Shown here piece after piece: positions 30,946-37,539 of a stretch of DNA of 64,000 nucleotides. Position 1 is the first letter of the stretch. Each line of letters starts with the position of its first letter. The notes under the pieces were generated by a model. The model had not been told where the DNA came from. It was given only the letters and a program-made list of their open reading frames with translations, and did no database searches. The stretch lies in the NCBI GenBank assembly GCA_029937545.1, contig JAPYPR010000003.1, positions 62,001 to 126,000 of the forward strand, given 5' to 3'. A program made the translations under genes and the position numbers. The DNA comes from Erythrobacter sp. (GTDB lineage Bacteria; Pseudomonadota; Alphaproteobacteria; Sphingomonadales; Sphingomonadaceae).

Positions 30946-31554
30946 TCAGCTGCGCGCGGCAATGCCGTTGCCTGCGGCGACATCGTCGAGCTCTTCGAGG
31001 ATCGCCCGGTGCGCCGCATCGTCCTGGAGCGAGCGCTTGGGAATCGACCCGTCGCTGAGCATGGTATTCAGCGCTGCCCGCGCGCGCCCGACCCGGCTCT
31101 TGATGGTGCCAACTGCGCAGTCGCAGATCGTGGCGGCTTCCTCGTAGGAGAAGCCGCCTGCGCCGACGAGCAACAGGGCTTCGCGCCGTTCCGGTGGCAG
31201 TGTCAGCAAGGCCCGGTGCATGTCCGACAGGTGAATCGGTTCTTCCTGTCCGGCAGGGGCCGTCAGGATGCGTTCGGCCACCGTCTCGTCGTATTCACCG
31301 CGGAAGCGATTGCGCCGCATGTCGGTGAGATAGGCGTTGCGCAGGATCACGAAGGTCCATGCGCGCATGCTGGTGCCCGGCTGGAACCGTTCCTGCGCGG
31401 CCCACGCCTTGAGCAAGGTTTCCTGCACAAGGTCATCGGCCATATCCGCACGACCGCAGAGCCCGCGCGCGAACGCACGCAGGTGCGGAACGACTTCCGT
31501 CAGTTCCCGCTTGAAGTCGGCCTTCTCGGAGGCCGTTCGTTCTGTGCCTCCCAT
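30946..31554 (-). CDS. ecfG: EcfG-type RNA polymerase sigma factor of the general stress response
   Basis: 202 residues, ECF15-like. Sigma region 2 carries ADDLVQETLLKAWAAQERFQPGTSMRAW, and region 4 LPPERREALLLVGAGGFSYEEAATICDCAVGTIKSRVGRAR. There is no C-terminal extension beyond about 25 residues. The sigma factor is held by NepR, released when phosphorylated PhyR captures NepR, and then reads GGAAC-N16/17-CGTT promoters, several of which are visible around this locus. Its start overlaps the nepR stop (ATGA), giving coupled and stoichiometric synthesis. Confidence 0.95.
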   Translation of the reverse strand: MGGTERTASEKADFKRELTEVVPHLRAFARGLCGRADMADDLVQETLLKAWAAQERFQPGTSMRAWTFVILRNAYLTDMRRNRFRGEYDETVAERILTAPAGQEEPIHLSDMHRALLTLPPERREALLLVGAGGFSYEEAATICDCAVGTIKSRVGRARAALNTMLSDGSIPKRSLQDDAAHRAILEELDDVAAGNGIAARS

Positions 31555-31727
31555 CAGTCCTTCGTATCCAGTTGCTCGAGAAGATCCTTGAAGCTGTCCG
31601 GCAGCGGTTCGTCCACTACAGAATCATACAGCTTGCGCAAACCATTTGCCCATTCGGGATCCTGGCCGTCCTTCTTCGCGGCCGATCCACCGCGGGGGGA
31701 TGGCATAACTGACTTATCGGAATTCAT
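31554..31727 (-). CDS. nepR: Anti-sigma factor NepR
   Basis: A 57-residue gene easily missed because of its size. The diagnostic NepR helix is LRKLYDSVVDEPLPDSFKD (residues 30-48), followed by LLEQLD; the N-terminal 25 residues are basic and disordered, as in other NepR proteins. NepR sequesters EcfG and is itself bound by the sigma-like domain of PhyR-P. ATG at 31727 is preceded by a purine-rich spacer, and the stop at 31554-31556 overlaps the ecfG start. An exact EcfG promoter lies 90 bp upstream, giving positive autoregulation. Confidence 0.95.
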   Translation of the reverse strand: MNSDKSVMPSPRGGSAAKKDGQDPEWANGLRKLYDSVVDEPLPDSFKDLLEQLDTKD

Positions 31728-31813: not shown

Positions 31814-31840
31814 GGAACGCAGTTATTGCTCTCTGGTTCC
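31814..31840. promoter_or_regulatory. Overlapping divergent EcfG promoters (nepR-ecfG and kinase)
   Basis: Leftward: GGAAC (31840-31836), 16-bp spacer, CGTT (31819-31816), an exact consensus for nepR-ecfG. Rightward: GGAAC (31814-31818), 16-bp spacer, GGTT (31835-31838), near consensus for the kinase. The -10 of each promoter overlaps the -35 of the other, so only one direction could be occupied at a time. Confidence 0.8.
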
Positions 31841-33707: not shown

Positions 33708-34499
33708 TCAGCCCAAGGGCCTACTCGATCCGAAGAAAAGCGCCTGACTGATTGCAGCCCGAACGGTCTGTTCCTGGAAGGGCTTGGTCACCAGATAGGT
33801 CGGCTCGGGCCGGTCGCCGGTCAGCAGTCTTTCGGGATAAGCTGTGATGAAGATCACCGGTACGCTGCTGATCGCGAGAATGTCGTCCACCGCATCGAGA
33901 CCGGACGAGCCGTCGGCCAGTTGGATATCGGCCAGCACGAGGCCGGGCGTTTTCTCCGCCACGACTTCCTGCGCCTGCGTCCGCGTGGCGGCTGTGCCGC
34001 ATACTTCATGGCCGAGCGAGGTCACCAGATCTTCAAGCTGCATCGAAATGAGCGGTTCGTCTTCGATGATCAGCACGCTGGTCGCGGATTCCTTGTCGAT
34101 TTCGCCGACGGCCTCCTGGACCAGTCGCTCGATCTCTTCCGGCTCCATTTCCATGATGTCGCCTGCCTGCTCGACGGAAAAATCCTCGAGCGTGGTCAGG
34201 AGCAGGGCCTGCCGGTTGAGCGGCGTAATGGATTTGAGCCGGTCGTGCGCGGCGCCTTCGTGCCCCTCGCCGGAGTCCGGCTCGGACACATCCATATAGG
34301 CGCTGGCCCATACCTTGTTGAAGGCCCGGTAGAGCGGTACGCGCCCCCCTTCGAGCGATGCCTTGAGGCTCTCATCGGCCAAGGCCGCCTCGAGCGTGGC
34401 GCGTACGAACGCGTCGCCCGTGGCCTGCGAGCCGGTCAGTGCGCGCGCATAACGGCGCAGATACGGAAGGTTGCGGGCAATTTGATCACCAAGCGACAT
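33708..34499 (-). CDS. phyR: General stress response regulator PhyR
   Basis: 263 residues with the unique PhyR layout: an N-terminal sigma-like domain (1-130; LPYLRRYARALTGSQATGD and ITPLNRQALLLTTLEDFSVEQAGDIM) that mimics EcfG but lacks promoter-binding residues, joined to a receiver domain (140-258) with acidic pocket EDE, phospho-acceptor Asp191, and Lys239. On phosphorylation the sigma-like domain binds NepR and frees EcfG. ATG at 34499 starts the standard MSLGDQIARNLP sequence; the upstream open frame is spurious. An exact EcfG promoter lies 30-55 bp upstream. Confidence 0.96.
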   Translation of the reverse strand: MSLGDQIARNLPYLRRYARALTGSQATGDAFVRATLEAALADESLKASLEGGRVPLYRAFNKVWASAYMDVSEPDSGEGHEGAAHDRLKSITPLNRQALLLTTLEDFSVEQAGDIMEMEPEEIERLVQEAVGEIDKESATSVLIIEDEPLISMQLEDLVTSLGHEVCGTAATRTQAQEVVAEKTPGLVLADIQLADGSSGLDAVDDILAISSVPVIFITAYPERLLTGDRPEPTYLVTKPFQEQTVRAAISQALFFGSSRPLG

Positions 34500-34529: not shown

Positions 34530-34554
34530 AACGCCCTGCATCCATCTTGGTTCC
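34530..34554 (-). promoter_or_regulatory. EcfG promoter of phyR
   Basis: Reading leftward: GGAAC (34554-34550), 16-bp spacer, CGTT (34533-34530), an exact match to the consensus. It provides positive feedback onto phyR. Confidence 0.85.
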
Positions 34555-34641
34555 TTTACGCGGCGCCTTGTGTAGTAAGGACGAATGACGTGCAGGTGCA
34601 GGCGGTTCGGAGCCCGTCTGTAGCGAAGAGGGGGATAATGC

Positions 34642-35388
34642 ATGCACGAGGTTGCAAATCCGTACAGCTGCGAGAACTGCCCGCTCCAGAGCAGGCCGGG
34701 GTTGCGCCCGCTCGAGCCGCAGCAACTGGCGTATATGGGCGAGTTCAAAGAAGGCGAGATTGCGCTCGAGGGTGGCGAAAGTCTGCTAGAACAGGGCGAG
34801 GAGGGCAGTCGCCTCTACACCCTGATCGAGGGAGTCCTGATCCGGTTCCGTAAGCTCGATGACGGACGCCGCCAAATCGTCAGCTTCATGTTCCCCGGCG
34901 ACCTGAGCGGGCTTCAGGGTGCGTTCGACGAGCCGGCGAGTCATTCGGTCGAAGCTCTCACCAACGCGCGCCTGTGCACGTTCAAGCGCCGCGACTTCAT
35001 CGAACTGATCTCCCAGCATCCGCGTCTGGGTTACGACATTACCTGGCTGGCGGCGAAGGAGGAGCGCCTGCTGGAGGACCATATCGTCGCGCTCGGGCAG
35101 CGCAGCGCGCGCGAGCGCGTGACCTATCTGGCGGTGTGGTTGGTCGATCGGGCGCTCGAAACCGGCCTCGCGGCGCGCGACAATGTGCTGCACCTGCCGA
35201 TAAAGCAGGCCCAGATAGCAGACATGCTCGGCCTCTCGCTGGTCCACACCAACCGCACCATTCGCCAGCTGGAGCGTGAAGGGTTGGTCATCTGGAAATC
35301 GCGTGAAATCTGCGTTCCGGACATGGATGCAGCATGTAACGTCGCGCAGTACGATCGCGACGACGCCAGCTTGCGGCCCTTCATATAA
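34642..35388 (+). CDS. Crp/Fnr family transcriptional regulator
   Basis: 248 residues: cyclic-nucleotide-binding-type beta roll (about 35-130), dimer helix, and a Crp-type winged helix (about 165-235) with recognition segment QIADMLGLSLVHTNRTIRQLEREG. An N-terminal C-x2-C pair (Cys10, Cys13) and Cys112 recall FNR, but the fourth cluster ligand is missing at the expected place (Pro19), so a classical [4Fe-4S] oxygen sensor is unlikely. Divergent from phyR. Two ATG codons sit at 34638 and 34642; only the second is in frame. The GSR neighbourhood suggests a link to stress, without direct evidence. Confidence 0.88.
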   Translation: MHEVANPYSCENCPLQSRPGLRPLEPQQLAYMGEFKEGEIALEGGESLLEQGEEGSRLYTLIEGVLIRFRKLDDGRRQIVSFMFPGDLSGLQGAFDEPASHSVEALTNARLCTFKRRDFIELISQHPRLGYDITWLAAKEERLLEDHIVALGQRSARERVTYLAVWLVDRALETGLAARDNVLHLPIKQAQIADMLGLSLVHTNRTIRQLEREGLVIWKSREICVPDMDAACNVAQYDRDDASLRPFI

Positions 35389-35448
35389 GACGGAATCTGC
35401 GGTTCTTCGGGCCTTTCCTGTCGAGGCGGAAATTTTTTAATTTTCCAT

Positions 35449-35473
35449 GGAACCGGATTTCAGGCCGGTCATT
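35449..35473 (+). promoter_or_regulatory. EcfG-like promoter of a small RNA
   Basis: GGAAC (35449-35453), 16-bp spacer, CATT (35470-35473). One mismatch to CGTT at the second -10 position. Transcription would begin at about 35480. Confidence 0.55.
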
Positions 35474-35479
35474 TAGTCT

Positions 35480-35570
35480 ATGTCACCGCCGAGACCCCCC
35501 TCCCGTCCAAGCGGCTGGTGATACGATCCCGAAAGGCCTCCATTGGAAGAATCCAGTGGAGGCCTTTTTT
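35480..35570 (+). ncRNA. Candidate small RNA with C-rich loop (GsrN-like)
   Basis: No protein gene fits here, but a compact RNA does. After the EcfG-like promoter comes a first hairpin, TCACCGCC (35483-35490) with GGCTGGTGA (35513-35521, one bulged T), exposing a 22-nt loop that contains CCCCCCTCCC (35495-35504), complementary to Shine-Dalgarno sequences. A second hairpin with an 18-bp stem and a T6 tail ends the transcript. An EcfG-dependent RNA with an exposed C-rich loop is the architecture of GsrN of Caulobacter, a post-transcriptional regulator of stress genes. Identity with GsrN is inferred from structure and context, not from sequence similarity. Confidence 0.65.
35532..35570 (+). terminator. 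Strong terminator ending the small RNA
   Basis: AAAGGCCTCCATTGG (35532-35546) pairs with CCAGTGGAGGCCTTT (35553-35567) with one G-U, loop AAGAAT, followed by continuous T to 35570. It lies 144 bp beyond the Crp/Fnr stop, too far to be that gene's simple terminator. Confidence 0.9.
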
Positions 35571-35660
35571 CGTGGGTAGTGACTTTCTCCGCGACGCGGC
35601 CAGGCGCGTGCAGCCGCAACCCGAGCGCGACGTCGCGTGGCTCCAGCTGTCTTTCGAAAT

Positions 35661-36219: not shown

Positions 36220-37377
36220 CTATAACGGCTTGCGATAAATGACGTATTCGCGGTTTACCGAGCTGTCGATCGCATCGGCTATCGCCTTCATTCCCTGGTT
36301 GTCGTCGAGGATCCAGCCGATCTCCGCCCGTTTCGCGCCATAAGCCTCGGTCGCGTTTACGCGGATCTGACTGATCATCATGAAGGCGAGCTGGCTGGCG
36401 AGGCGCGAATTGTGCAGTTCGCTGAGAACACCCATCAAGGGCACGCGCATGTCGGAGCCGGTCGGCTTGCGCAGCCAGCGCAGCATGCGCACCCAGCCGA
36501 AGGGCAGCAGCTTCCCACCGGTCTGCTTCAATACGCCGTTTACGTCGGGTAAGGTGAGCATGAAAGCTACCGGACGACCGTCCAGCGCGGCAATCATGTT
36601 GAGGTTCTCATGGATAATCGGCTTCAGCTTCTTGCCCGCATAGGCGATCTCTTCGGGCGTGAACGGGACGAATCCCCAATTCTTCGACCACGCGTCGTTG
36701 AGAATGCTCAGGACGATTTCGGCCTCTTCGGCCCAGCGCGATTTGTCGACCGGGCGGATGCGGATGCGCTCGTTGCGCTGGCCGGATTGCACGATGCGTC
36801 GGATCAGCGGCGGAAAATCCTCGGTGACGTCGAGATCGTAGGTCAGCAGCGTTTTCTCACGCTCGTAACCGGCGCTCTCGATCCATCCGGCATAGGCTGC
36901 CGGATGGTGCCCCATCATGATCGTCGGTGCGTGGTCCTGCCCCTTCACGAGCAGGCCGGGCTCTTCCCAGACCGACATGGAAATCGGCCCGATGACATGC
37001 GTCATGCCCTGGTCGCGCAGCCAGTCCTCGGCGCGCGCCAGAAGTACTCCGGCGACAGCTTCGTCTTCGGCGTCGAAATAGCCGAACATGCCCGTGCCCG
37101 GTCCCATGCCTTGCTCGGGTGGCAACTCGAGAGCGAGATGGTCGATATGCGCGGAAATCCGCCCGACGTCGCGGCCGTCCCTTATGGCGACGAACAGCTG
37201 GTGGCTGGCATGGCCGAAAAACGGGTTCTTGCCCGGATCGACCAGCTCCAGCTGCTCCGAACGCAATTGCGGTACTGCATGCGGTTCGCGCGCGGCGAAG
37301 GCGCGGCCGAGGTCGACGAAGCGGGTGCGCCCTTTCTTGCCTTCGACCGGTTCAATCACTATTTCGCCTGCCGACAC
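36220..37377 (-). CDS. GNAT-fold protein of unknown substrate
   Basis: 385 residues, a two-lobed GNAT-type protein: a Phe/Trp-rich first half with VGRISAHIDHL and GMFGYFDAEDEAVAGVLLARAEDWLRDQGMTHVIGPI, and a second half with WSKNWGFVPFTPEEIAYAGKKL and ALDGRPVAFMLTLPDVN. Close homologues are often annotated only as hypothetical or as dATP pyrophosphohydrolase; the acetyltransferase fold is my reading. The start is GTG at 37377, 7 nt after GGGAG; a TTG one codon earlier is possible, and no ATG occurs until residue 90. It is divergent from the desaturase. Confidence 0.7.
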   Translation of the reverse strand: MSAGEIVIEPVEGKKGRTRFVDLGRAFAAREPHAVPQLRSEQLELVDPGKNPFFGHASHQLFVAIRDGRDVGRISAHIDHLALELPPEQGMGPGTGMFGYFDAEDEAVAGVLLARAEDWLRDQGMTHVIGPISMSVWEEPGLLVKGQDHAPTIMMGHHPAAYAGWIESAGYEREKTLLTYDLDVTEDFPPLIRRIVQSGQRNERIRIRPVDKSRWAEEAEIVLSILNDAWSKNWGFVPFTPEEIAYAGKKLKPIIHENLNMIAALDGRPVAFMLTLPDVNGVLKQTGGKLLPFGWVRMLRWLRKPTGSDMRVPLMGVLSELHNSRLASQLAFMMISQIRVNATEAYGAKRAEIGWILDDNQGMKAIADAIDSSVNREYVIYRKPL

Positions 37378-37539
37378 CAAAACACTCCCGTTCAGTCTGC
37401 GTTAGCCCGTTGTGTGCTGGATGATCTTTGTCAAGGAATGACCCCGCGGCCCCCGCGCTCCCGCCGATCACCATGATCGCAAGCGCCCGCTGTATTCCGC
37501 GTCCCTTTTGCGATAGGGGACCTCCAAGGAAATCGAGAG

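Follow-up and report, generated by a model that had tools for sequence, protein, structure and literature searches.

Positions 35449–35570 of the 64,000-nucleotide stretch of Erythrobacter sp. DNA analysed here (the window) almost certainly hold a small RNA (sRNA) gene of the EcfG type, set among general stress response (GSR) genes. Genome sequences establish this gene and its promoter motif, the structure, conservation and synteny of the RNA, and the complementarity of its loop to a katG leader. The best reading of these comparisons is that the RNA represents a new family of the GsrN-like kind, separate from GsrN, the described post-transcriptional arm of the alphaproteobacterial GSR. We consider it likely that the RNA is controlled by EcfG, acts in trans in the manner of GsrN and pairs with G-rich leaders, including that of katG in Qipengyuania. 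By pairing with messages such as katG, it would probably help cells to survive stress.

Promoter, fold and terminator

A preliminary description of the locus had proposed an EcfG-like promoter, a hairpin exposing a C-rich loop and a terminator hairpin with a T tail, together making a self-contained RNA of about 90 nt in the GSR hub. All of these elements can be located (Table 1). On the forward strand, GGAAC (35449–35453) is separated by a 16-base spacer from CATT (35470–35473), and GGAAC recurs at the matching place in all 56 related loci described below, where it starts 31 or 32 bases before the modelled RNA. The loop, AGACCCCCCTCCCGTCCAAG (35492–35511), is unpaired in the consensus fold, the terminator hairpin comprises about 16–18 bp (approximately 35531–35568) and its T run extends to 35570. 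Conservation, covariation and synteny give good support to the reading of this unit, of about 91 nt as predicted, as a self-contained RNA.

The minimum free energy of 35449–35600 is −62.7 kcal/mol (z = −3.45), and none of 200 shuffled sequences was as low. The terminator hairpin of the RNA was absent from the output of a simple terminator scanner, which listed three others. Across the 56 loci, the AT fraction is 0.64 in a 24-base stretch that stops 6 bases short of GGAAC; for the entire loci it is 0.37.

Table 1. Features of the sRNA gene and of the surrounding GSR genes, in window coordinates
Feature	Position	Strand	Basis
nepR–ecfG promoter, GGAAC-N16-CGTT	31816–31840	−	Sequence
ecfG, GSR sigma factor, presumed to transcribe the RNA	30946–31554	−	Pfam sigma-70 regions 2 and 4, PhyR_sigma2
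nepR (anti-sigma factor), ahead of ecfG	31554–31727	−	Sequence; named from position and size
phyR, GSR anti-anti-sigma factor, constant neighbour	33708–34499	−	Pfam PhyR_sigma2, PhyR_sigma-like, Response_reg
phyR EcfG promoter, GGAAC-N16-CGTT	34530–34554	−	Sequence
Crp/Fnr-type regulator, variable gene between phyR and the RNA	34642–35388	+	Pfam cNMP_binding and HTH_Crp_2
A/T-rich tract, UP-element-like (putative function)	35428–35445	+	Just 5′ of the −35 element
EcfG-type promoter, GGAAC-N16-CATT	35449–35473	+	GGAAC in 37/37 Qipengyuania and 56/56 wider loci
sRNA gene, about 91 nt	35480–35570	+	Conservation with covariation; 5′ end placed from the promoter
5′ stem-loop presenting the C-rich loop; arms 35481–35491 and 35512–35523	35481–35523	+	Helix 1 pairing
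Loop core, CCCCCCUCCCGUCC	35495–35508	+	CCCCCTCCCGTCCA unchanged in 56/56 strong-match loci
Putative seed, CUCCCGUCC	35500–35508	+	Retained in L154, where the C run is gone; replaced in L147 and L148
Linker CGAUCCC, conserved, unpaired in the consensus fold	35524–35530	+	Alignment; also present in diverged L147 and L148
Intrinsic terminator, hairpin and T run	35531–35570	+	11/12 helix 2 pairs change on both sides

Conservation and covariation of the RNA

A DNA search with 35430–35580 matched all 37 Qipengyuania genomes, the window's own included, at E ≤ 4.5 × 10−23. In the alignment of these 37 sequences, GGAAC is invariant, the core is nearly invariant and the terminator varies with its pairing kept, whereas the flanks are poorly conserved. 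Because the DNA is conserved in every same-genus genome between poorly conserved flanks, the arrangement at 35449–35570 is not a product of chance. In 24 genomes from other families of the order, the best match had an E value of 0.0096; the overall tally of the DNA search, 53 of 61 genomes at E ≤ 1, takes in weak matches.

The covariance-model search and alignment suggested in the preliminary description were carried out, and they revealed a conserved loop and conserved stems in many genomes of the family. At E ≤ 0.1, the first model, R1, gave matches in 204 of the 397 family genomes searched; the other 193 gave none. Strong matches (E ≤ 9.7 × 10−10) were obtained in 153 of the 397, distributed over 40 genera by hand count, and the remaining 51 lay at E ≥ 5 × 10−5. 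A second model, R2, built on 56 diverse sequences, matched 73 of 246 genomes of the order at E ≤ 0.01 (68 strongly; 72 of the 73 in the window's family) and 7 of 385 genomes of the class, with 4 strong matches, all from the window's family. The RNA was matched in at least 118 stretches from named genomes; among the matches listed are Qipengyuania, Erythrobacter, Porphyrobacter, Novosphingobium, Croceicoccus, Croceibacterium and Altererythrobacter, as well as Aurantiacibacter, Tsuneonella, Pontixanthobacter, Pelagerythrobacter and Citromicrobium.

Detailed comparisons were made on 56 loci: 52, the window's own included, that cover all 40 strong-match genera, and four further Qipengyuania loci. 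The loci were picked among strong model matches, and the model contains the loop, with the promoter and phyR lying outside it. The identity of the loop sequence CCCCCTCCCGTCCA in 56/56 strong-match loci therefore owes something to selection, and variants are seen elsewhere. The RNA is 84–95 nt long across the 56 model matches. Its C run measures 5, 6 or 7 bases among the 56 loci (6–8 within Qipengyuania); because these lengths shift the reading frame, we rejected a reading of the core as a conserved small peptide.

The structure is paired in 95.2% of cells over the 56 sequences, and 12 of 22 pairs show changes on both sides. Cells with changes on both sides numbered 64 versus 16.7 after shuffling, and none of 500 shuffles was as high on any of five measures. 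When the partners were slid against each other, pairing fell to 37–51%, a comparison in which the structure itself derives from the same sequences. Most of the covariation lies in the terminator. Helix 1 is paired in 98.9% of cells, and the 5′ stem includes three invariant pairs, five that vary on one side and one that varies on both.

Some homologues have diverged in the loop. G516 (L147) and G346 (L148) gave weak R2 scores and were accepted as diverged homologues because GGAAC-N16-CGTT, an adjoining phyR, the outer stem and the CGATCCC linker are all present; strong matches also occur in their genus (g117). They are natural loop variants: their loop carries two C tracts, and both the C run and CUCCCGUCC are replaced. 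In these two loci, the RNA lies between phyR and an EcfG homologue (55–58% identical), which comes next on the strand of the RNA. The RNA of G524 (L154) has lost the C run and retains CUCCCGUCC, an indication that CUCCCGUCC is the working seed.

Five other weak R2 matches (G411, G456, G666, G835 and G775) were dismissed as chance, being terminators or coding ends with no GGAAC promoter just upstream; a further one, in G431, had an E value of 0.0046. G775, a distant alphaproteobacterium, does have a hairpin with CCCCCCCTCCC in its loop (C7TCCC) and a terminator at L152 1992–2070, but no GGAAC promoter just upstream of them.

A search beside phyR in 27 loci of about 3–3.8 kb, drawn from 24 additional genomes (20 belong to the window's family), yielded no convincing counterpart; the remainder of these genomes was covered by the covariance-model search only. 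In the genera g112 and g99, which are without the RNA (L161, L162, L163, L165, L166, L168 and L171), a GGAAC-N16-GGTT promoter about 100 nt off points away from phyR, which separates this promoter from ecfG.

The RNA gene accompanies phyR

The surroundings of the RNA in the window comprise ecfG, nepR, a CHASE-HWE kinase gene, phyR, the Crp/Fnr regulator, a stand-alone response regulator and a gene at 36220–37380 (reverse strand) that we take to be GNAT-like. The proposed placement in the GSR hub holds throughout: phyR adjoins the RNA in 56/56 loci, at a distance of 0.1–1.6 kb and on the opposite strand. The presumed GNAT-like gene, which has no Pfam match at E ≤ 0.001, also follows the RNA in 56/56. 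Within the limits of the flanks, 46 of the 56 loci gave a response-regulator match (that of L070 coincides with phyR), 46 contained the kinase and 34 contained ecfG.

The Crp/Fnr gene is a less constant companion. The preliminary description had located the RNA downstream of this gene, which is true of 34/37 Qipengyuania genomes; across the family, the gene is present in only 14/56 loci, scattered over several genera, and the constant neighbour is phyR. This distribution bears on whether there is an sRNA at all, as the RNA lies 95 nt downstream of crp/fnr on the same strand in the window's genome and could be read as a 3′ untranslated region or terminator of that gene, or as a conserved DNA element. 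However, crp/fnr is missing at 42/56 loci in which the RNA and its promoter motif stay, and the compensatory changes favour an RNA, which makes this reading very improbable indeed.

The promoter and its sigma factor

The promoter resembles those of the GSR genes in its −35 element and differs in its −10 element. The best-scoring −10 element stands at a spacing of 16 in 55 of the 56 loci and reads CATT in 49, CGTT in 4, GGTT in 2 and CTTT in 1. By contrast, the phyR promoter, found as GGAAC-N15–17 in 52/56 loci, has CGTT in 51 and GGTT in 1, and GGAAC-N16-CGTT precedes nepR–ecfG in 30 of 31 loci, with CGTT in all 30 that were found. The EcfG-like promoter of the preliminary description is thus upheld in GGAAC-N16, but its CATT is unlike the CGTT of the phyR and nepR–ecfG promoters (one exception). 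This recurrent one-base deviation may tune promoter strength or signal another sigma factor.

The second of these possibilities, that an ECF sigma factor other than EcfG reads GGAAC-N16-CATT, gains from the predominance of CATT (49/56) at loci in which the other GSR promoters are CGTT bar one. A survey of 11 genomes for EcfG-like sigma factors at E ≤ 10−8 detected 2–4 of them in 6, which also speaks for it. On the other hand, the window's genome and 4 others have a single one in this survey, which covered EcfG-like factors only, some lineages have CGTT at the RNA promoter itself, and the RNA stands beside phyR in 56/56 loci. We therefore regard a different ECF sigma factor as quite unlikely and take it that EcfG presumably transcribes the RNA, as its promoter sequence suggests.

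Relationship to GsrN and other known RNAs

GsrN (CCNA_R0081) was described in Caulobacter crescentus and the Caulobacteraceae (Tien et al. 2018, PMC5869019). In that study, the GsrN loop base-pairs with the 7 nt that begin the Caulobacter katG mRNA, and this raises KatG translation (PMC5869019). The window RNA resembles GsrN in its promoter of the EcfG/sigma-T type, a 5′ C-rich loop, a length of about 100 nt, its own terminator and, in part of Qipengyuania, complementarity to a katG leader. Both also occur in GSR neighbourhoods: most Caulobacteraceae, C. crescentus not among them, have gsrN close to GSR genes, and the window RNA is in the GSR locus. PMC5869019 also describes predicted GsrN-like RNAs from the Rhizobiaceae and other lineages that likewise have an EcfG promoter, a GSR neighbourhood and an exposed 5′ C-rich loop; these were recognized by position, promoter and, for some, expression rather than by shared sequence, and the likeness to the window RNA is one of description only.

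There are also differences. The loop of the window RNA is CCCCCCUCCCGUCC, whereas that of GsrN, as deduced from printed target sites, consists of C6 followed by a GACUUGA-like segment. Unlike GsrN, the window RNA has a single 5′ stem-loop and is divergent from phyR, and its katG site, enclosed in a hairpin, precedes the start codon by about 40 nt instead of occupying the first 7 nt of the mRNA.

A GsrN-like RNA was found in one of the 385 genomes of the class (L185, G821) by means of the GsrN target sites printed in PMC5869019. R2 gave this RNA 7.3 bits (E = 0.27), confined to the terminator half, and the best R2 match in the locus (16.6 bits) lay elsewhere; labelling of the L185 family through RF01521 gave 0/3. 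We infer that the L185 RNA is a GsrN homologue from its target-site pattern and from the neighbouring PhyR, which among solved structures is closest to PDB 3n0r, presumably Caulobacter PhyR. It differs from the window RNA in loop sequence and 5′ fold, and it follows phyR in the same orientation, whereas the window RNA is upstream of phyR and divergent.

These data bear on whether the window RNA is a true GsrN orthologue, the two descending from a common ancestral RNA and having diverged beyond sequence recognition. The two have in common the class of promoter, the GSR setting, a C-rich loop in the 5′ part, a terminator and a similar length, and these, with the katG complementarity seen in part of Qipengyuania, would fit such an origin. 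However, among the 385 class genomes R2 is strong only in the window's family, its low score on the L185 RNA falls in the terminator half, and the loop, the 5′ fold and the position and strand relative to phyR all differ there. On balance, we judge orthology improbable. The preliminary description had offered two options, a sphingomonad counterpart of GsrN or a new family. The former survives as a working analogy, strengthened by the katG-leader complementarity, and falls as homology; the new family is preferred because homology to GsrN failed the covariance-model test. In addition to its GSR locus and its length, the RNA has the EcfG-type promoter, the unpaired 5′ C-rich loop and the terminator of a GsrN-like RNA. 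It is conceivable, although we lean slightly against it, that the two are convergent, having arisen independently beside phyR with an EcfG-type promoter, a C-rich loop and a katG-leader contact. If they are independent, GsrN and the sphingomonad RNA would show the GSR repeatedly recruiting a C-rich-loop sRNA.

No Rfam 15 family reached its gathering score at the RNA, and the whole window gave only three tRNAs. The Caulobacter sRNA CC1840 (RF01521) aligned weakly over its full length, with a similar C-rich hairpin loop and terminator; its 16.7 bits fall short of the gathering score of 50, and membership was rejected. CC1840 also has two weak matches elsewhere in the genome. P17, on the opposite strand, was rejected at 27.3 bits against a cut-off of 45 (E = 4.5 × 10−5) and dropped out when the search was run on a shorter stretch; the microRNA-type matches all fell under their cut-offs. 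We found no description of the window RNA in the literature searched, in which subscription journals and preprints are thinly covered; the loop letters appeared only in an unrelated prostate-cancer paper. PMC5869019 states that Erythrobacter litoralis has no apparent gsrN-like gene. The RNA of Qipengyuania, Erythrobacter, Porphyrobacter, Novosphingobium, Croceicoccus and their relatives may fill this gap, and it supplies a ready covariance model, a named seed and a first candidate target.

katG as a candidate target

In the mechanism that we propose, the 5′ stem-loop would display the C-rich loop, and the seed CUCCCGUCC would pair with G-rich sites in mRNA leaders. In Qipengyuania, katG would be a direct target through the 9-mer GGACGGGAG, displayed by the loop of a small hairpin about 40 nt ahead of the start codon. 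If GsrN is a guide, this contact would most likely activate KatG synthesis, which would link the GSR to peroxide defence. Pairing in vivo, and activation rather than repression of katG, are presumed, as would be any role of Hfq or processing for the window RNA.

Target complementarity was assessed in katG, picked beforehand as a proven GsrN target, in 54 loci: 22 genomes supplied 24 of them, and 30 further Qipengyuania genomes supplied the other 30. The window genome's own katG leader (L319) contains CTCGGACGGGAGACCGAG, in which GGACGGGAG, complementary to CUCCCGUCC at every base, begins 41 bases ahead of the ATG. The 9-mer occupies the loop of a 5-bp hairpin, CTCGG-ACGGGAGA-CCGAG, situated just upstream of the ribosome-binding site in L319 and 16 other Qipengyuania leaders. 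As GG[AG]CGGGAG, the site is present in 17/38 Qipengyuania katG leaders; in 4 of the 17 (L325, L343, L345 and L349), it reads GGGCGGGAG and the pair is kept as G–U. Qipengyuania aquimaris is among the species with the site. The target search with the loop proposed in the preliminary description thus yielded an exact complement in the own genome and in part of the genus. The 9-mer is missing from the other 21 of the 38 leaders, L341, which has 8 of the 9 bases (GGACGGGA), being counted as negative, and it occurs in 0/16 katG loci from 14 genomes of 12 other genera, although the RNA loop is the same there in the genomes aligned. Start codons were not found for L304, L316 and L310 (that of L304 is doubtful) and were mis-chosen for L336, L350 and L352; these rows were kept and judged by eye, and the site in L350 and L352 is at −101 and −102 of a wrong downstream start.

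The 17 positive leaders, which are related by descent, have a mean pairwise identity of 98% in the site and hairpin arms versus 68% in the 40 bases upstream; in one pair, identity rises from 47% over those 40 bases to 100% over the hairpin. Farther upstream lies a second conserved block, probably a promoter or an OxyR site. At least four T residues follow the hairpin in only 10 of the 17; therefore, control by termination is not a general rule. A similar katG hairpin with a different loop occurs in L331 (Qipengyuania) and in L318 (another genus).

For the own katG leader, none of 200 mononucleotide shuffles had as good a duplex energy, and a repeat gave 19 of 1,000. Four other positive leaders gave shuffle fractions of 0.005, 0.005, 0.01 and 0.055, and the non-positive leaders tested gave 0.1 to 1.0. 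Genome-wide, GGRCGGGAGR is not enriched (34 sites versus 35 for the reversed control), and the 34 sites imply a chance of about 6 × 10−4 for a match in a given 100-nt leader. Sequence context was retrieved for 30 of these 34 sites: the katG site alone could be assigned clearly to an untranslated leader, the placement of L379, L380 and L384 is ambiguous, and one site is the RNA gene's own antisense. Because the larger shuffle test (19 of 1,000) was the weaker, we only slightly favour katG as a direct target in Qipengyuania and call the overall reading likely, not certain. The 9-mer is lacking in many leaders where the RNA loop is the same, so the constancy of the loop cannot be due to katG. This gene is at most a single target, restricted to one clade, and there must be others that account for the invariant loop.

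Possible contacts with Shine–Dalgarno regions

The preliminary description had the C-rich loop pairing with Shine–Dalgarno regions. For the C run itself, this idea has weaker support than pairing by the adjoining CUCCCGUCC, with the katG leader of L316 (G086) as a case in which the C run could pair. There, GGAGGGGG, about 70 nt upstream of the start, is complementary to CCCCCUCC of the RNA loop, and 2 of 1,000 shuffles were as good. This lead, found after the fact, represents a possible different contact in another genus.

More broadly, the RNA might be a general anti-Shine–Dalgarno RNA, its C run blocking ribosomes at many G-rich sites, with katG incidental and the Crp/Fnr mRNA as one target. 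CCCUCCC is able to pair with GGGAGGG; in duplex energy, crp/fnr takes fifth place among the 54 gene starts of the window (a ranking too noisy to use); and 24 of 44 usable loci, in which the L030 row is an artefact, have a loose G-rich motif close to the start of the Crp/Fnr gene. However, L154 lacks the C run and retains CUCCCGUCC, the Crp/Fnr motif is not consistent, and the Crp/Fnr gene itself is absent from most of the 56 loci. A general activity of this kind is thus unlikely, and pairing through CUCCCGUCC is the reading that we retain.

In the window, the Crp/Fnr gene has at 34622–34641 a G-rich Shine–Dalgarno sequence, GAGGGGG, that could pair with the RNA loop.
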